This document shows positions 1 to 38,583 of a stretch of 38,583 nt of DNA, piece by piece. The notes under the pieces are model-generated. The model made no database searches. It had not been told where the DNA came from and saw nothing but the letters and a program-made list of their open reading frames with translations. How positions within the stretch are numbered: position 1 is the first letter of the stretch; every line of letters begins with the position of its first letter. The stretch lies in the IMG/VR virus record IMGVR_UViG_3300045946_000253, positions 1 to 38,583 of that record; one strand, written 5' to 3'. Both the position numbers and the translations under genes were made by a program. The stretch comes from a virus.

Positions 1-140
1 GTCGTCACGCATATCGTCCATCCTCCTGCGTGGTGGCCAGGACGAAGGCGCCTCGGGTCGTGCGTTCGAGTTCGTGGGCTTTGACGCCGCGCATGCAAAT
101 GCGATGGACCTGCTGATACATCTGGCGGCTGTCCGGCAAT
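1..140. repeat. Terminal direct repeat, left copy
   Basis: Bases 1-140 reappear at 38444-38583 with a single difference (T at 14, G at 38457). The repeat covers the 3' end of the RepA-like gene, and the difference is silent (CGA versus CGC, both Arg). This is what an assembler produces from a circular or circularly permuted molecule. A true short terminal repeat is the alternative, but a repeat cutting through a coding sequence makes that less likely. Confidence 0.9.
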
Positions 141-1267
141 TCCAGTTCGGCCATGAGCTCTTTAATGCTCATGGGCATGCGGTACTGCATGAGGGCCGTA
201 TAGATCTTCTGCCGCATGTCCCCATAGTCCCCACTGCCCGACGCCTGGCCCTTGTATGTGAGCCAACACTGCCCGTCGCGAAACTGCATCGTCAGGTGGT
301 GCGTGGCATCCTTGCCGCGCCGCACCAGCGCCGCCAGCGTCAACTCCTCCTCCTGGCGTTCCACCATCAAGAGCGCATCCGCGACCGCCTGCTTGGCGAT
401 ACTGCCATGGAGCGTATCGAAGATGTTGACGTCGTCGCGGCTGCGCTTGCGGCGGTGATCGAGGGCCACAAAGGCGCAGTGGTGCTGTTTGGCCAGCCAG
501 CGCAGCGGGAAGACCATCTGGCGCATCTCGGTAAACAGGTCATGGCCTTTGCCCTGGGACGGGGCGTAGAGATACGACAGCGGATCGATCACCAGCAGCC
601 GCGGCGTATGCTGTTCGCAGATCTCCTGCACCCATTGCAGCAACCCTTCGTCGAAGGTGGGCACGTTATCGACGCCATGGATGAAGCGCAGCGCCCCTTC
701 CTCCAGCGTCAAGCCCGGATCGAGCTCATGCAGCCGCTGGCGCGTATCCTGTTCGTCGTCTTCGAGGCTGATAAACACCACGGTGCCGGTCGGCACCTCC
801 CACTGGGTGAGCCAGTGCCCGTACCGCGCCACCGCCAGCGCCAGGCTGTACGCCAGATAACTTTTGCCGCTCTTGGGGGTGCCACCGAGAATCGTTAAGC
901 CCTCGGCAATGAGGCCGTCCACGAGCCAGGCCACCGGCTGCATCGGGTCCTCGAGCAGCCGCGCCCCATCGCGCCACGCAAACGGGTCGATCGCCTGCGG
1001 CAGCGCCGTCATGGCCGCAAACAGATCGGGGAGATACACGTGCTTTTCCTTCCGGAGCCCGGGCAGGAAGCGCCCGGCAAACAGCACAAAGTTTTCTCGC
1101 CGGATGCGCTTCAGGCGCTGCAGCACCACCGGGTGAAACAGCAGCCCAGGGTTGGCTTCTTCGTCGGGATCGCGGATCACTTGCAGCACGGCCATGACAA
1201 AGGCGTCGTCATTAAAGTCCTCCAGCATGGCCACAATCGTATCGATATGCTCTCGGCGCCAGCTCAT
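5..1267 (-). CDS. RepA-like replicative helicase (AAA_25 / RecA-fold ATPase)
   Basis: A 420-residue hexameric-helicase-type ATPase, probably unwinding DNA at the phage origin. Walker A is G129-T-P-K-S-G-K-S136. An acidic LED stretch lies at 168-170, and Walker B is LLVID with Asp228. The family's usual DHRRK-type element and a 'HGSIA' sensor-like stretch follow. Residues about 350-415 look like a winged helix. This resembles the RSF1010 RepA / AAA_25 proteins found in plasmids and phages. The start overlaps the upstream DUF1874 gene by ATGA. Transcribed leftward, it ends at the contig junction, directly before the GTCGTCAC iteron array (38381-38451 in closed coordinates), which supports a role in origin opening. 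A DNA repair or recombination ATPase of the same fold is the alternative. Confidence 0.8.
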   Translation of the reverse strand: MSWRREHIDTIVAMLEDFNDDAFVMAVLQVIRDPDEEANPGLLFHPVVLQRLKRIRRENFVLFAGRFLPGLRKEKHVYLPDLFAAMTALPQAIDPFAWRDGARLLEDPMQPVAWLVDGLIAEGLTILGGTPKSGKSYLAYSLALAVARYGHWLTQWEVPTGTVVFISLEDDEQDTRQRLHELDPGLTLEEGALRFIHGVDNVPTFDEGLLQWVQEICEQHTPRLLVIDPLSYLYAPSQGKGHDLFTEMRQMVFPLRWLAKQHHCAFVALDHRRKRSRDDVNIFDTLHGSIAKQAVADALLMVERQEEELTLAALVRRGKDATHHLTMQFRDGQCWLTYKGQASGSGDYGDMRQKIYTALMQYRMPMSIKELMAELELPDSRQMYQQVHRICMRGVKAHELERTTRGAFVLATTQEDGRYA

Positions 1268-1650
1268 GCAAGCCTCCTCAGCAGCCCAAAGCTATAGGCG
1301 CCCTGCGCCACCATCCTGGCGACGCGTGCCGTATTCCCCGTCGTCTGCCGCTCCAGCGTCTCGTACGATTCGATCTGGAAAATGAGCGCGTCATCGTGAT
1401 ATCCCAGCAGCGGCAAGGTGCGGCATGGCGGCGGCAACACCACGCCGGTCAGGTGTTCCAGCGCCGCGGCCAGGAAGGGATGGGTCACACAGGAGACATA
1501 GCCATCGGCCATGAGCCACCTGGCCGCGCCAGGCGTGTCGATCAGGACATACTCATACAGCCCGCCATGCCCCAGCAGATGGCACGGCAGCACGTAGCGC
1601 GTGCCGCGGGGCGGGGCGTACGGGAGGGGACCGGGCAGCTGGCGAGGCAT
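1264..1650 (-). CDS. DUF1874-like protein, candidate viral ring nuclease (AcrIII-1 type)
   Basis: The start is the ATG at 1650, preceded by GAAAGGG; a longer reading to 1743 lies inside the upstream gene and is not preferred. The 128-residue product has the layout of the DUF1874 / STIV B116 family: an N-terminal strand (RYVLPCHLL), an 'A..WLMADGYVSCVTH' block, a helix (PFLAAALEHLTG), an Arg after 'LPPPC', then a 'DDALIFQI' strand. The reference member, SIRV1 gp29 (AcrIII-1), degrades cyclic tetra-adenylate and so blocks type III CRISPR signalling; its key His47 sits in 'SIGHDST'. Here His57 falls at the equivalent place and Arg77 matches Arg66. The Glu88 equivalent is not clean (Glu100 or Glu97), and Arg85 seems absent. 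Family membership is probable; ring-nuclease activity is inference. Confidence 0.6.
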   Translation of the reverse strand: MPRQLPGPLPYAPPRGTRYVLPCHLLGHGGLYEYVLIDTPGAARWLMADGYVSCVTHPFLAAALEHLTGVVLPPPCRTLPLLGYHDDALIFQIESYETLERQTTGNTARVARMVAQGAYSFGLLRRLA

Positions 1651-1660
1651 AGCGACCCTT

Positions 1661-1882
1661 TCAGGCGTCTGAGGTGGTGCGATGGACCCCGCCCTCGCGC
1701 ATCCACGCCTCCAGGTCATGGGCGGGGTAGCGGATGCGGCCATGTTTCTTCACATACGGTGGCCCGTAGCCCCGCCCCTTGCCCGCCGTGCGCCAGTGCG
1801 CCAGCGTCGAGACGGCAAAGCCCGTCAGCGCGCTCGCCTCGTGCGGGGTCAGGTAAGGGGAGGGGAGAGGCCAGGGCGTCAT
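1661..1882 (-). CDS. Small helix-turn-helix protein (AlpA/excisionase-like, HTH_17)
   Basis: 73 residues. 'LTPHEASALTGFAVSTLAHWRTAGKG' followed by 'PPYVKKHGRIRYPAHDLEAWM' is the typical MerR-like HTH_17 layout: recognition helix, wing, then the 'I-R-Y...DLEAW' ending. Such proteins act as excisionases (directionality factors) or early transcription regulators. It overlaps the Ner-like gene by ATGA and is third from the end of the upstream leader of the replication module. Excisionase is plausible because the phage carries a tyrosine integrase, but no experiment-like evidence is visible in sequence. Confidence 0.75.
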   Translation of the reverse strand: MTPWPLPSPYLTPHEASALTGFAVSTLAHWRTAGKGRGYGPPYVKKHGRIRYPAHDLEAWMREGGVHRTTSDA

Positions 1883-2139
1883 CGCTGCGTCTTTCTGCGG
1901 CGCCCCAGTTCCTGGGGATAGCGTTCGGGCCAGAGATCGGCGGGCTTGCGCCCGATCTTTTTGGCAATGGCCAGCTCAATACGCGGGGAATGGATAAAGA
2001 GCGCGGCGTTGCGCACCGCCTGTCGCGTGACGCCGACGTCTTTGGCGATGTCGGCAAAACTCGACCCATGGATGGAGAGCTGATACAGCAGCCAGGAGGC
2101 ACGATGCTTCGGACTGGTAGGCATTTCCATAGTTGTCAT
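1879..2139 (-). CDS. Ner-like DNA-binding regulator
   Basis: 86 residues. 'QLSIHGSSFADIAKDVGVTRQAVRNA' is an HTH, and it is followed by 'PRIELAIAKKIGRKPADLWPERY', the characteristic ending of the Mu Ner / Nlp (SfsB) family. Ner proteins repress early and repressor promoters, as Cro does in lambda. It is the first gene behind the leftward promoter at 2213-2242 and faces the XRE repressor gene, so a Cro/Ner-like role in the lysis-lysogeny switch is likely. GGTAAG lies just upstream of the ATG. Confidence 0.8.
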   Translation of the reverse strand: MTTMEMPTSPKHRASWLLYQLSIHGSSFADIAKDVGVTRQAVRNAALFIHSPRIELAIAKKIGRKPADLWPERYPQELGRRRKTQR

Positions 2140-2212: not shown

Positions 2213-2242
2213 ATAATACTCCGTACAAAAGTTCGGCGTCAA
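2213..2242 (-). promoter_or_regulatory. Leftward early promoter (PL-like)
   Basis: Read on the minus strand, TTGACG (2242-2237) and TATTAT (2218-2213) are separated by 18 bases. This is a good sigma70-type promoter about 70 bases upstream of the Ner-like start. It sits in the 193-base divergent region (2140-2332) between the regulator and the repressor. A plus-strand CATAAT overlaps the same bases (2212-2217), but I find no matching -35, so the repressor's own promoter is unassigned. A GTGC-GTATAT-GCAC inverted repeat near 2293-2306 could be an operator. Confidence 0.6.
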
Positions 2243-2332
2243 GCGTAAAAGACACCAGCGATTGAAAAAAACGCGTGCCTCTGGGGGACAGGTGCGTATA
2301 TGCACGTGCCTAAGCAATGGAGAATTTGCCCC

Positions 2333-2803
2333 ATGGCCGCAAGTACTGCAGTGGAACAGTCATTTGCTGAACGGGTGAAGTATCTTGTCGAAAAGTTTGT
2401 TTCGGTGACCGCGTTCAGTCGAAAAGTTGGCGTGAGTGATAGCACGGTGCGGAAATGGATCAAAGGCGAGGCGGAGCCCAGGCGGGATCATCTTGTGGCG
2501 ATTGCGATCAGTATGGGGGTGCGGTTGGATTGGCTTGCGATGGGTGTTGGCCCGATGACTGGAGAGGGAGAGGCCACGCCAGCGGCAGGCCATCTGCCTG
2601 TGCAATCGTCCATCCTGTTGGATGATCTCCAATTACTTCAGGCCGTCATGGTGGCTGTGGAGCGTGAAGTCCTCCGCCAGCACAAAGACGTGCAGATCGA
2701 GACGAAAGTCAAACTTGTGGGGATGGTCTACCGCTTGGCGAAACACGAACCCATGGATCATCTCGCCGCTATTGCTGCCGAGTATGTGTCCATGCTTAGC
2801 TAA
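2333..2803 (+). CDS. XRE-family phage repressor
   Basis: 156 residues from the ATG at 2333, with GGAG 10 bases upstream; an in-frame ATG at 2300 would add 11 residues. The N-terminus holds an HTH_3/XRE domain: 'VTAFSRKVGVSDSTVRKWIKGEAEPRRDHLVAIAISMGVRLDWLAMG', with the helix-turn-helix at about 26-45. The C-terminal half is helical. It shows no Ser-Lys S24/LexA peptidase motif, so SOS-induced self-cleavage is not supported. Position opposite the Ner-like gene marks it as the likely lysogeny repressor. Bases 2804-2829 carry only the next ribosome binding site. Confidence 0.8.
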   Translation: MAASTAVEQSFAERVKYLVEKFVSVTAFSRKVGVSDSTVRKWIKGEAEPRRDHLVAIAISMGVRLDWLAMGVGPMTGEGEATPAAGHLPVQSSILLDDLQLLQAVMVAVEREVLRQHKDVQIETKVKLVGMVYRLAKHEPMDHLAAIAAEYVSMLS

Positions 2804-4725: not shown

Positions 4726-5076
4726 ATGCCCTGGCGTCCCCCTTCGCATGCCGCACTCACCCGCTCCCGTACCGCGAGCGACCAGCGCTATACCCAGGAG
4801 CGTCGCGCTCGCCATGGCCCAGACCCCCGTGGTACCATGCGGTGGCGTCGCCTGCGGGCGCGCATCCTGAGCCGCTTCCCGCTGTGCGCCGATCCGTTCT
4901 GGACGCATGCGAAGACGGGGGCTGTGGTGCCAGCGACCGACGTGGATCACCGGGTCGGGATCTGGGAGCGGCCCGATCTGGTCTGGGAGGAGAGCAACCT
5001 GCAAGCGCTCTGCCGGGCGTGTCATCAGCGCAAGTCACAGGCTGAGCGGCGCCTTCCCACCCCGGCACCCCGTTGA
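4726..5076 (+). CDS. HNH endonuclease
   Basis: 116 residues, basic N-terminus. The HNH fold is clear: 'DVDHRVGIW' (first His), 'EESNLQALCRACHQRKS' (Asn, Cys-x2-Cys and final His). Small HNH proteins encoded just before the terminase of HK97-like phages assist the terminase in DNA cleavage for packaging. CAGGAG lies upstream of the ATG. It is the first gene of the rightward morphogenesis operon, 96 bases before the small terminase. Confidence 0.85.
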   Translation: MPWRPPSHAALTRSRTASDQRYTQERRARHGPDPRGTMRWRRLRARILSRFPLCADPFWTHAKTGAVVPATDVDHRVGIWERPDLVWEESNLQALCRACHQRKSQAERRLPTPAPR

Positions 5077-5172
5077 CAGGGGTGGTGGAGGGGGGAGGCA
5101 AAAACCTGGGGCTTTCGCGCTACGAGCGGCGCGCGCAGCCGTGCACATTTTTTCAAGGGTTTTGGAGTGTTT

Positions 5173-5670
5173 ATGGGATCTCGTGGTCCGAAGCCGACGC
5201 CGACAAAGGTCTTAAAACTTCGGGGCTCCTGGCTGGCGACAACGCGCCACGGCGAACCGCAGCCCACGGTGGAACTGCCGCCGTGTCCTGCCTGGCTTGA
5301 TCCGCTCAGTAAAAGCCTGTTTCGCACGCTCGCGAAACAACTCGTGGAACTCGGGATTCTGACCCGCATCGACCGCCAGGCGCTCGCGCGCTATTGCGTG
5401 TTGTCGATCCGCTGGCGGAAAATGGAACAGTTCATTCAGAGCCATGGCGAAGTGTGCGCAATTTACAGTGAGCCAGACGAAGACGGACAGCGCGTGCTCC
5501 TCAAGATCGACCTGTATCCCCAGGTGCGTCTTGCCAGTACCCTGGCAACGGAACTCCTCCGCATCGAGAATCATTTTGGTCTGACACCCAGCGCGCGGAC
5601 TGCGTTGCAGGTGGAGAAGGCCCCGCATGCCGACCACGACCAGAAAGCGAAATTCTTCCGCCAGGCGTAA
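5173..5670 (+). CDS. terS: Terminase small subunit (P27 family)
   Basis: 165 residues from the ATG at 5173 (GGAG at 5164-5167; a GTG at 5167 would add two residues). It starts 'MGSRGPKPTPTKVLKLRGSW', the hallmark of P27-family small terminases, followed by 'PPCPAWLDPLSKSLFRTLAKQLVELGILTRIDRQALARYC'. The protein recognises phage DNA and hands it to the large subunit. Its 3' end overlaps the large-subunit start by 44 bases, suggesting translational coupling. Confidence 0.9.
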   Translation: MGSRGPKPTPTKVLKLRGSWLATTRHGEPQPTVELPPCPAWLDPLSKSLFRTLAKQLVELGILTRIDRQALARYCVLSIRWRKMEQFIQSHGEVCAIYSEPDEDGQRVLLKIDLYPQVRLASTLATELLRIENHFGLTPSARTALQVEKAPHADHDQKAKFFRQA

Positions 5671-7360
5671 GCCGCTCACCAAAGCGTGGCGCCAGGTACT
5701 CGGAACGATTCCGGGCTACGACCCGGAAGCCACTGCCCACGATGCGTGGTTCGACCCTGCTCTGGCCGAGAAGTTTTTGGGCTTCTTCCCGGTATGCCTG
5801 CGGCACATCGAAGGCGCCGTGGCCGGAGAGCCCTTTGTGTTGGAACCCTGGCAGCAGGCCATTGTCGCCAACCTGTTTGGCTGGCAACGTCTCGATGAGC
5901 GTGGGAGGCAGGTGCGGCGCTACCGCGAGCTGTTTCTGTACGTCCCCAGGAAGAATGGGAAGACGCCGCTGTGTGCCGGGATCGGCCTGGCGGTCCTGTT
6001 TTGCGATGACGAAGTGGGGCAGCAGAACTATATTGGCGCTGGAGATCGGGAGCAGGCCGGGAAGCTCTTCCGCTATGCCAAAGGGATGGTCGAGCGCGAT
6101 CCCGACCTGACTCGCCGCTGTCGGATCTATGGCGGCAATGCCACCGCCGGGCAATCGCGCTCGATTGTGATCGAGCAGGAAGCCTCCTTCCTGCGCATCG
6201 TGGCCACGGATGCCGAGACGGCGCATGGCGACACGACGCACCTGGCGATTATCGACGAGCTGCACGTGCAGCAGAGTCGCAACTTCTTCTATACGGTGCG
6301 CACCTCGTTTGCCTCGCTCAACCGCCGCCAGCCGCTGTTTATCCAGCTCACCACGGCCGATTATGACCGCCCAAGTATTTGTAACGAACAGTATCAGCTG
6401 GCCTGCCGCATTCGCGATGGGCAGATCCAGCGCCCGGACTTTTTGCCGGTGATCTATGAAGCGCCGCTGACCTGGGAGGGCGCGGACCTCGACTATACCG
6501 ACCCGGCGGTGTACCAGCAGGAGCAGATCTGGGCCATCGCCAACCCGAACCTGGACGTCAGCGTGTCCCGTGCCTACCTCCGCAATGAGTTTCAGCGGGC
6601 GCAGGAAACCACCGGCTACTTGCCGACGGTGCTCAGGCTGCATCTCAATGTGCGCACCCAGCAGGTGTCGATGTGGCTGGATCTGCAGAAATGGGACGCC
6701 AGCGCCGGCGCGGTCGATGCCGTGGCCTTACGCGGGCGCGAGTGTTGGGCCGGGCTGGACTTAGGTGCCACATCGGACTTAACGAGCCTCTGTCTCCTCT
6801 TTCCCGAGGGGGACGACGTCTATCAAGCCCTGTGGTATAACTGGGTGCCGGAGGAGACCGCCAAGAAACGGGCGCGCAACGGCGATCCGGTGTATCTGGA
6901 GGCGCTGGAGCGCGGTGAGCTGGAGACCACCGAGGGCGACGAAACCGACTACGCGGTGATCCGCTCGCGTATCCAGGACCTCGCCGACGTCTACGTGATC
7001 AAGGAGATTGCGGTAGATCGGCTGTTTCAGGGCGTGGAATTCTGTCAGAACTTGATCAAGGATGGGTTCGAGATCTGCGCCTTTGGCCAAGGCTTCATGT
7101 CCATGGCGGCCCCGACGCAGGAACTGGAGCGGCTGGTAAACCGGGGCACCTTCCACCATGGCGGCACCACACTGGTGCGCTGGACGGCGGGCAACTGTGT
7201 GGTGCGGCGCGATCCAGCGGGGAACCTGAAGCCGGACAAGGACAAGAGCGCCGATAAGATTGATCCGATCGTGGCCGCGCTGATGGCCCTGGGGAGAGTC
7301 ATGGTCCGACCGGAGGCGAAGGGGAGTGTGTATGATGAGCGGGGGCTGGTGAGCGTATAG
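5627..7360 (+). CDS. terL: Terminase large subunit (Terminase_1 type)
   Basis: 577 residues. The N-terminal packaging ATPase has Walker A V106-P-R-K-N-G-K-T113 and Walker B LAIID-E with Asp210/Glu211. The C-terminal RNase-H-like nuclease has Asp378 in 'AGLDLGATSDLTSL', and the family's closing 'SADKIDPIVAALMAL' is present near the end. The complex cuts concatemeric DNA and pumps it into the prohead. The gene is full length and keeps all key residues. Together with the P27 small subunit and the preceding HNH gene it is a standard HK97-like packaging module. Confidence 0.95.
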   Translation: MPTTTRKRNSSARRKPLTKAWRQVLGTIPGYDPEATAHDAWFDPALAEKFLGFFPVCLRHIEGAVAGEPFVLEPWQQAIVANLFGWQRLDERGRQVRRYRELFLYVPRKNGKTPLCAGIGLAVLFCDDEVGQQNYIGAGDREQAGKLFRYAKGMVERDPDLTRRCRIYGGNATAGQSRSIVIEQEASFLRIVATDAETAHGDTTHLAIIDELHVQQSRNFFYTVRTSFASLNRRQPLFIQLTTADYDRPSICNEQYQLACRIRDGQIQRPDFLPVIYEAPLTWEGADLDYTDPAVYQQEQIWAIANPNLDVSVSRAYLRNEFQRAQETTGYLPTVLRLHLNVRTQQVSMWLDLQKWDASAGAVDAVALRGRECWAGLDLGATSDLTSLCLLFPEGDDVYQALWYNWVPEETAKKRARNGDPVYLEALERGELETTEGDETDYAVIRSRIQDLADVYVIKEIAVDRLFQGVEFCQNLIKDGFEICAFGQGFMSMAAPTQELERLVNRGTFHHGGTTLVRWTAGNCVVRRDPAGNLKPDKDKSADKIDPIVAALMALGRVMVRPEAKGSVYDERGLVSV

Positions 7361-33774: not shown

Positions 33775-35397
33775 TTAGCGCCCGAAGCGGACACGATACA
33801 CGCGCACCCGCTCGCCCCCGTCGGCGGCGTATTGCGCGTACAGATACAGCAGGCGCCGGCGGTGCCAGGCGCGGTGGTCCCACGGAATGGTCGAGGCAAT
33901 CTGCCCCGGCGTGGTCAGCTCCTCCAGGAGCAGCGTCCAGGTGACGCCGCCATCCTCACTCCGAAAGAGCCGCATGCCACTACTGAGCGCCAGCCAGATG
34001 GCCGGATTCGGGGAGCCGATGACCTGACTGGCGGCGTACGGCAGGATGCGTCCTGGCGCGATCCAGGTGCCCTGCGCCACGGTGTAATGATGCCGCGGCG
34101 CCCCGGCATAGTTCCCGTTATTAATGACCGCCACAATCCACGGCTGGTGCGCCCAGTTGGCGGTCAGCCAGCCGGTCTGCCAGTAGCGGGCGTCACTGTC
34201 CGACGACCCCGCAAAAAGCTGCGAGCTGATGGCCACCGGCTCCTGCTGGTACGTGAGCGGCAGCGTGACCGGCACCCCCTGGGCGTCGCGCCAGGTCTGG
34301 CCCCCATCGTCACTCGCCACATAGATGTACGCATTGGGATTGGCGTAACAGTGCTGCCCGCCCTGTTCCTCACTGTACTGCAGGCAGCGGAAGTGGTAGG
34401 CATGCAGCCTGCCGGTGGCATCGCCGTACACAAACAGCTGGTTACTGCGGTAATGATCGGCATCCCCCAGGGCCTGGTTGTGGCCCTGCGCGAACGGCCT
34501 TGGCCCGAGGCGGCGCCAGGTCTGCGCCTGTACGTCATAGCGCGCCATGCCGGTCGACCAGCGCCGATCGTGATAGCCGGCACTGCACTGCACGCACTCG
34601 CGGAAGCTGAGCACGATACTGCCGTCCACGGTATAGGTGCGCTGCGGGTAGGTGATTTGATTGCCGGGCAGGGCGGCAATGCCCGGTTCATCCGTCGTCC
34701 AGTCGACCTGACACTGGCCGGTGCACCCGGCGTTGCCTGGGGTGCTTTTGTTGGGGTGGGGCCCCGCCGGCTGGCCCAGAAACGTCCAGGCCGCGACGCT
34801 CGATGGCGCCTGCGCCCGCCAGTACTGCCACGGGGTTGAGTGCATGTTGGACCACACATGCACCACGCCCGCCGTATCGACGGCCAGGCCGGGCGTGGTA
34901 TGGATGTCGGGGTAATTGGTGGTCACCACACTGGGCGCGCTCCAGGTGCCAGCGGCGCCGTCGTAGCGCCTGACCGCTACCTCATTGGTCGGGGTGAGTG
35001 CCACGACATACACGTCATCCTGCTCGGGGGCCGTGGGCGAGGGAAAGGTCGTGATGGGCGAGTTAAACGACGCCCGATTGGCGGCCACGGTGGGGAATTC
35101 GCCCAGCACCTCCAGGGTGGGCTCCAGCAGCTCCGTGGGCAGGTCCTGCGCGGCAGACGGCGTGTGAGTCAGGGTACAGCGCCCGGGCGTGCCACCTGCG
35201 GCGTGGCAGGGCCAGGAGAGGCTCTGCGGGCTGGGAGCGGGGGCCTGGTGCGGTGGGGCGGAATGCCCCCCAGCACCCCACGTACCGGCACCAGGCAGGA
35301 GCACCAGACTGCCCCAGAGCAGCCAGCGCCGGGCGGCGACACGGAGCAGGCCCCGTCCCGCGATACGGTGGCGCTGGCGGGGTGTCGGATCAGGCAT
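33775..35397 (-). CDS. Membrane-anchored BNR/Asp-box beta-propeller protein
   Basis: 540 residues from the ATG at 35397 (GAGGAGTCC upstream). A basic N-terminus leads into a hydrophobic segment at about 25-42 ('WLLWGSLVLLPGAGTWG'), a signal sequence or anchor. A Pro-rich linker follows, then a sialidase-like propeller of BNR_4 type: 'FNSPITTFPSP...DDVYVVALTPTNEVAVRRYD', 'PGLAVDTAGVVHVWSN', and Asp boxes 'SDDGGQTW' (about 361-368) and 'SEDGGVTW' (about 480-487). Several cysteines suggest an exported protein. It lies inside the leftward early operon, not with the tail genes, so it probably acts at the surface of the infected cell. The glycan substrate, if any, is unknown. Confidence 0.75.
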   Translation of the reverse strand: MPDPTPRQRHRIAGRGLLRVAARRWLLWGSLVLLPGAGTWGAGGHSAPPHQAPAPSPQSLSWPCHAAGGTPGRCTLTHTPSAAQDLPTELLEPTLEVLGEFPTVAANRASFNSPITTFPSPTAPEQDDVYVVALTPTNEVAVRRYDGAAGTWSAPSVVTTNYPDIHTTPGLAVDTAGVVHVWSNMHSTPWQYWRAQAPSSVAAWTFLGQPAGPHPNKSTPGNAGCTGQCQVDWTTDEPGIAALPGNQITYPQRTYTVDGSIVLSFRECVQCSAGYHDRRWSTGMARYDVQAQTWRRLGPRPFAQGHNQALGDADHYRSNQLFVYGDATGRLHAYHFRCLQYSEEQGGQHCYANPNAYIYVASDDGGQTWRDAQGVPVTLPLTYQQEPVAISSQLFAGSSDSDARYWQTGWLTANWAHQPWIVAVINNGNYAGAPRHHYTVAQGTWIAPGRILPYAASQVIGSPNPAIWLALSSGMRLFRSEDGGVTWTLLLEELTTPGQIASTIPWDHRAWHRRRLLYLYAQYAADGGERVRVYRVRFGR

Positions 35398-35614
35398 GAA
35401 GGGACTCCTCTGTACATGTGCAGTAGTCGATGTCCCAGAGGCGGTCGATGGGGCCACGCTCGACCGCCGGACTGGCCGCGATCTCCTGCATGAGCCAGTG
35501 CAATAACCCCTGCTCGGTCTCCGGCGTGGAGAGGGCATAGACCAGCCCGCCCTGGCAGCACGGACAGCGCAGCACCCAGGCAGATGGGGCGCTCTCGGGG
35601 CTAGTCGGCGGCAT
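35390..35614 (-). CDS. Small cysteine-containing hypothetical protein
   Basis: 74 residues from the ATG at 35614 (AAGGAG upstream). 'WVLRCPCCQGGLVYALSTPETEQGLLHWLMQEIAASPAVERGPIDRLWDIDYCTCTEESL' has Cys pairs at both ends, which could form one zinc site. It overlaps the BNR gene start by 8 bases and the upstream zinc-finger gene by 14. No family recognised. Confidence 0.6.
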   Translation of the reverse strand: MPPTSPESAPSAWVLRCPCCQGGLVYALSTPETEQGLLHWLMQEIAASPAVERGPIDRLWDIDYCTCTEESLHA

Positions 35615-35851: not shown

Positions 35852-35986
35852 CTCCCCAGGGTTACAGATTTAGTGACTCTCCCCAGGGTTACAGATTTAG
35901 TGACTCTCCCCAGGGTTACAGATTTAGTGACTCTCCCCAGGGTTACAGATTTAGTGACTCTCCCCAGGGTTACAGATTTAGTGACC
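35852..35986. repeat. Five tandem 27-bp repeats (iteron- or centromere-like)
   Basis: Five copies start at 35852, 35879, 35906, 35933 and 35960; all are identical except for the last base of copy 5. Each contains GTTAC-AGATTTA-GTGAC, an imperfect inverted repeat, joined by a C-rich CTCTCCCCAG linker. The 27-base period is about two and a half helical turns. The array lies between the ParB-fold gene (whose last codons enter copy 5) and the zinc-ribbon gene. It could be an operator array, a partition site or a second set of replication iterons. There are no spacers, so it is not CRISPR. Confidence 0.9.
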
Positions 35987-38182: not shown

Positions 38183-38451
38183 GTGACGACAGTGACGACA
38201 ATGGCCTCTTGCCCTACGGCCATGCGGTCCATCTGCTGTCGTCACGCCTGGATCACCTGTGACGACAGTGACGACAATTTCCACGGTTTTTCCTCTAAGT
38301 TCTTGTGAAAGAACGACATAATTTTTCGTATTGTTTTGTCACAGCGTAACCTATTGTTCTGGAAAGCATTACGCAAAAGTGTCGTCACTGTCGTCACTGT
38401 CGTCACTGTCGTCACTGTCGTCACTGTCGTCACTGTCGTCACTGTCGTCAC
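38183..38451. other. Candidate origin of replication (GTCGTCAC iterons plus AT-rich segment)
   Basis: The 370-base non-coding gap between the RepA-like gene (closed coordinates) and the 82-residue gene contains 13 copies of GTCGTCAC. Two inverted pairs sit in identical 20-mers at 38183-38202 and 38259-38278, one direct copy is at 38238-38245, and eight direct copies run from 38381 to 38451. Between the two groups, 38276-38380 is clearly A+T-rich against a G+C-rich genome and holds a 6-bp hairpin (GTTCTT-GTGA-AAGAAC, 38299-38314). Iterons flanking an easily melted segment beside a helicase gene is the standard theta-origin layout. No DnaA box was confirmed. Confidence 0.65.
38381..38451. repeat. 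Tandem 9-bp array, seven perfect units plus a partial eighth
   Basis: GTCGTCACT repeats with a strict 9-base period from 38381; the last unit, GTCGTCAC at 38444, runs into the stop of the RepA-like gene. The unit is the same core found inverted at 38183-38199 and 38259-38275. A 9-base spacing is unusual for protein-bound iterons (about 20-22 is common), so it may bind a filament-forming protein or be hypervariable in length. Reads translated as Val-Thr-Thr repeats are not a gene. Confidence 0.9.
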
Positions 38452-38583
38452 GCATAGCGTCCATCCTCCTGCGTGGTGGCCAGGACGAAGGCGCCTCGGG
38501 TCGTGCGTTCGAGTTCGTGGGCTTTGACGCCGCGCATGCAAATGCGATGGACCTGCTGATACATCTGGCGGCTGTCCGGCAAT
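38444..38583. repeat. Terminal direct repeat, right copy
   Basis: The same sequence as bases 1-140 except G at 38457 for T at 14. It re-encodes the last codons of the RepA-like gene on the minus strand, so the reading frame continues from here into the start of the window. Unique genome length would be about 38,443 bases. Confidence 0.9.

Follow-up and report, generated by a model that had tools for sequence, protein, structure and literature searches.

The third gene of an early operon in a temperate phage encodes a 128-amino-acid (aa) protein that we assign, on solid grounds of sequence comparison, to the DUF1874 family (PF08960; AcrIII-1/Crn2) as a strongly divergent variant. We put the chances at about even that it is a phage counter-defence protein directed against type III CRISPR signalling, and its most likely role would be the interception of cyclic oligoadenylate. 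All positions refer to the window, which is the whole 38,583-nucleotide stretch analysed (IMG/VR record IMGVR_UViG_3300045946_000253, positions 1 to 38,583).

The 128-residue open reading frame reported by the first-pass annotation is present and lies on the minus strand, a detail omitted there (Table 1). It belongs to a tight leftward early operon that runs from two HTH regulators through the 128-aa gene to an AAA_25 ATPase. The putative promoter ahead of this operon is near-consensus sigma-70 and came from a search in which 2 promoter-like sites were seen against 0.5 expected. The ATG lies 10 nt past the HTH_17 gene and is preceded at 5 nt by the SD-like sequence GAAAGGG. We regard the frame as coding-like because its GC3 (0.81) resembles that of TerL (0.79) and portal (0.82); GC3 of the opposite-strand ORF at 1396–2265 is 0.62. 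Gene order and the promoter-like site agree with the earlier placement of the gene in an early operon, behind regulator genes.

Table 1 Features of the leftward operon and codons of the putative active site (positions in the window)
Feature	Position	Strand	Remark
AAA_25/RepA-like ATPase gene, downstream of 128-aa gene	5..1267	-	4-nt ATGA overlap
DUF1874/AcrIII-1-like gene, 128 aa	1264..1650	-	ATG at 1650-1648, stop ends at 1264
Thr104 codon	1339..1341	-	At near-invariant Glu88 position
Arg101 codon	1348..1350	-	Probably equivalent to Arg85; behind 5-residue lid insertion Tyr96-Glu100
Arg77 codon	1420..1422	-	Equivalent to Arg66 of SIRV1 gp29
His57 codon	1480..1482	-	Equivalent to catalytic His47 of SIRV1 gp29
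HTH_17 excisionase-like regulator gene, directly upstream of 128-aa gene	1661..1882	-	
HTH_35 repressor-like gene (phrog_769), first of operon	1879..2139	-	
Sigma-70-like promoter TTGACG-18-TATTAT before operon	2213..2242	-	10/12 matches
CI-like repressor gene, divergent from leftward operon	2300..2803	+	

Single-sequence scans of the protein against Pfam, PHROGs, NCBIfam, PADLOC and PDB sequences returned nothing related, and it falls far under the curated cut-off of Pfam PF08960 (26 bits). In a tblastn search of plasmids, the best match was a Vibrio YddF protein at an insignificant E value of 0.06; this protein is itself a Pfam DUF1874 member (66 bits), and pairwise BLASTP between the two gave E = 2e-10. 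A match to MT835869 was rejected, as it falls within an unrelated 756-aa frame. We then compared the protein with an alignment (A1) of 14 named DUF1874 proteins, unselected by motif, using hhalign, which gave a score of 32.85 (E = 3e-5, probability 73%); the controls reached maxima of 19.9 (200 shuffles) and 18.0 (400 other frames). Scanning IMG/VR with a degenerate DNA motif yielded 84 stretches, almost all coding for DUF1874 proteins. With the 128-aa sequence alone as query, phmmer matched L146 at 5.9e-8 and L046, L134, L105 and L106 at ~1e-5, all of them DUF1874 proteins. A DUF1874 profile built without the query scored it at 17.5 bits, compared with a maximum of 5.7 for 5000 shuffles and 50.8 bits for the lowest-scoring other member, and among 11,720 frames only DUF1874 proteins and the 128-aa ORF reached an E value of 1. 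Judged against shuffles and other members, these scores reflect genuine homology and make the protein an extreme outlier. In a phylogenetic tree its end branch was the longest by far (3.83 changes per column; median 0.53), and its placement near L146/L105 is unsure.

The protein is also predicted to adopt the DUF1874 fold. AlphaFold2 run with 55 family sequences produced a model with a pLDDT of 87.3 and a pTM of 0.80, weak only at the N-terminal tail and the strand 4–5 connection; the single-sequence model (pLDDT 36) was uninformative. All 16 Foldseek matches to the PDB at E ≤ 1e-3 were DUF1874 chains, and VIA aligned the model to SIRV1 gp29 with Z 13.7 (1.7 Å over 99 residues) and to 6SCF, the anti-CRISPR structure of the same protein, with Z 13.8. 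Because the AlphaFold2 model is alignment-guided and not independent, the claim of homology rests on the sequence controls. The DUF1874 ancestry that the first-pass annotation had suggested was borne out by profile, single-sequence and fold evidence, each of which could have failed. That annotation had named the lack of a DUF1874 match by profile search as counter-evidence; this is what Pfam gave, but the more sensitive comparisons overturned it.

Active-site residues were placed using four MAFFT modes and 68 DUF1874 members, with gp29 residue numbers taken from alignment to chain 2X4I and residue roles drawn from PMC1796864 and later papers. Because most of the 68 members had been picked by the motif GH..TA..NR, they overstate conservation at its positions; the 14 unselected members of A1 nevertheless show no variation at the Asn, the Gly, the His or either Arg, and little at the Glu. 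The proposed equivalence of His57 with His47 and of Arg77 with Arg66 held in all four modes, at positions where all 68 members carry the family His and Arg; a one-residue insertion precedes Arg77 in the alignment. An Arg85 equivalent, suggested to be missing, is probably present as Arg101, which every MAFFT mode and hhalign pair with Arg85, although pairwise BLASTP puts Tyr96 there. Glu88 had rightly been called ambiguous, since Thr104 occupies its position in every mode, with Glu97 and Glu100 in the insertion just ahead; as speculation, one of these two could substitute for the missing Glu. Other near-invariant positions are replaced as well: Pro22 for Asn8, Thr56 for Gly46 (the Gly before the catalytic His), Leu60 for Thr50 and Pro75 for Asn65. 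In the crystal structure of AFV3-109, His45 and Arg64, the equivalents of His57 and Arg77, are in contact, a Glu reaches the catalytic His from the other dimer subunit, a second Arg lies in the dimer contact, and the strand 4–5 connection forms a lid that is open or closed (PMC1796864). Both the insertion and the Glu-to-Thr change of the 128-aa protein are located within this lid.

AcrIII-1 cuts cA4 using a His as general acid (PMC12830947, PMC7371418 and PMC7293037), and the H47A variant of SIRV1 gp29 is catalytically inactive (PMC7213978). In the mechanism that we propose, the 128-aa protein would be made early from the leftward operon and would form the cradle-shaped DUF1874 dimer, with cyclic tetra-adenylate or a similar cyclic oligoadenylate as its presumed ligand. 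In cleavage, His57 would serve as general acid, Arg77 and probably Arg101 would bind phosphate or close the lid, and CARF effectors would stay unactivated, an anti-CRISPR outcome. A role directed at cyclic oligoadenylate is favoured because His57 and Arg77 are kept; cleavage is its most likely mode, and sequestration would be the other. From the AcrIII-1-like interpretation of the first-pass annotation, the DUF1874 ancestry and the early-operon position stand, and that the protein works like AcrIII-1, as an active ring nuclease, is what we chiefly infer. We do not claim bona fide AcrIII-1 membership, because the Glu, Asn and Gly of the family are replaced. To judge from a title in the reference list of PMC12751052, one study contests that AcrIII-1 acts as an anti-CRISPR when natively expressed. 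We tentatively consider it possible that the substitutions of Glu88 by Thr, Asn8 by Pro and Gly46 by Thr, together with the longer lid, mark a remodelled pocket that captures a different signal (such as cA3, cA6 or some other cyclic nucleotide used in defence) or makes the protein a sponge for cyclic oligoadenylate. If so, the protein would escape profile annotation as well as the restriction to cA4 that characterises known AcrIII-1 proteins.

The replacement of Glu88 and other near-invariant residues, together with the longer lid, would also suit a sponge with a DUF1874 fold, binding cyclic oligoadenylate and no longer cleaving it well. This fold can sequester without cutting, because gp29 H47A, although catalytically dead, retains cA4 binding (apparent KD ~25 nM; PMC7213978), and such a role has been proposed for the ring-nuclease candidate Csx15, which shows no clear activity on cA4 (PMC12409355). 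A pure sponge would, however, have no need of the catalytic His, which is retained with Arg77, and we consider this reading rather unlikely. We give a similarly low likelihood to repurposing of the protein for DNA binding, replication or regulation in the early operon, or for a different cyclic nucleotide. The retained His57 and Arg77 argue against such a change, but the strong divergence of the active-site motif argues for it, and the neighbours of the gene encode a RepA-like ATPase and an excisionase-like regulator. DNA binding is the main rival to the cyclic-oligoadenylate role: in vitro, AFV3-109 binds dsDNA at ~5 µM, and STIV B116 was originally described as nucleic-acid binding. In the family, however, such binding is weak and lacks a defined target, and the DUF1874 members found within CRISPR loci link the family to cyclic oligoadenylate.

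Extreme divergence and the loss of near-invariant residues are also what a decaying former AcrIII-1 gene, now functionless, would display. Such decay is improbable given that the frame is intact, has a coding-like GC3 and an SD-like site, and is coupled to the next gene by an ATGA. That the protein is unrelated to DUF1874 and resembles it by chance would account for the lack of a match in Pfam, PHROGs, NCBIfam and PADLOC, but it is contradicted by the shuffle and ORF controls and by independent single-sequence matches that land on DUF1874 proteins, and we regard it as extremely improbable.

The protein shares with AcrIII-1 (SIRV1 gp29, PDB 2X4I/6SCF) the predicted fold, the equivalents of His47 and Arg66, probably that of Arg85, and a viral gene. 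It differs in its low identity (~12%), a ~16-residue N-terminal extension, the replacement of Glu88, Asn8, Gly46, Thr50 and Asn65, and the 5-residue lid insertion. Its best annotated relative is the Crn2-type YddF protein WP_261887467.1 of Vibrio aerogenes plasmid pLMG19650, with 27% identity over 110 residues and a shared C-terminal FGLL.R. In contrast to the 128-aa protein, this relative has a canonical AIGHEST motif and 66 Pfam bits and is encoded inside a type III CRISPR locus, the location typical of Crn2 host ring nucleases; the 128-aa gene lies in a phage early operon. The nearest tree rows are phage DUF1874 proteins (L146, L105 and L106), which have the same short N-terminal hairpin form and keep Trp45 (KRW or KKW; ARW in the 128-aa protein), but carry canonical motifs and score 87–99 Pfam bits (two scanned: L146 and L106). 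They come from different phages that have no neighbour genes in common save a weak integrase match in L105. The Crn2 domain of Marinitoga Csx1-Crn2 (PDB 8Y6Z/8Y7F/8Y7G) was one of the top matches in both Foldseek and VIA, whereas that protein is a host effector fusion with a canonical active site and is known to be highly active on cA4.

Neither a near relative of the 128-aa protein nor a close homologue attesting selection on His57 was found in IMG/VR and 84,980 GTDB genomes. Motif scans for query-like 'TH' variants found none (one returned two canonical members, one nothing and one only L106), and the protein was absent from 29 phage records with the same terminase, most of which are fragments. 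The host search identified terminase relatives in two Planctomycetota MAGs only, and these are too distant (46–52%) for a host to be named. A 2025 survey reported AcrIII-1 in 36 of 28,114 phage genomes (PMC12409355), and known phage ring nucleases are detected through profile search. Such counts may miss divergent members, because the 128-aa protein is homologous yet unseen by single-sequence scans against Pfam, PHROGs, NCBIfam and PADLOC. If the protein is active, the active site can do without the Glu, Asn and Gly that are near-invariant in the family; if it is inactive, a new ligand or sequestration would be indicated.

DUF1874 proteins were also observed in type III CRISPR loci. On the Vibrio aerogenes plasmid (L046, 2998–5131), the YddF/DUF1874 gene lies in a type III CRISPR locus between cas1 and the gene for a CARF-type effector, and directly upstream of the latter, which encodes a 604-aa protein with TM-CARF-like PADLOC matches. 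A type III locus of a Planctomycetota genome (L157; genome G109, contig C12), which includes Cas10 and Cas6-RT-Cas1, encodes a 738-aa effector-Crn2 fusion protein (4947–7160, plus strand) that combines a CARF_m2--CARF_LON-like region (residues 65–525; PADLOC, 132 bits) with a DUF1874 domain at the C terminus (72 Pfam bits). It is apparently a self-limiting fusion distinct from Marinitoga Csx1-Crn2, which was described as unique in 2020. In both loci (L046 2998–3315; L157 4947–7160, residues 635–738), the DUF1874/Crn2 proteins are matched at ≤1e-28 by the PADLOC model PDLC01147, whose name, 'Csx16', may therefore mislead annotation.

The phage record itself is a virus contig with an integrase and a Phage_capsid-family capsid protein, and its source is a temperate phage. 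A 140-bp direct terminal repeat (99%; window 1–140 and 38444–38583) makes it probable that the record is circular or circularly permuted. At 38380–38451, this terminal repeat is abutted by the 9-bp repeat TGTCGTCAC in eight perfect copies. No Rfam matches were found in the window. A 27-bp unit, CTCCCCAGGGTTACAGATTTAGTGACT, forms five perfect tandem copies at 35852–35985 between early-strand genes, and a 587-aa BNR_4 (BNR-repeat) protein is encoded at 33775–35538 on the minus strand, which is the early strand of the phage.
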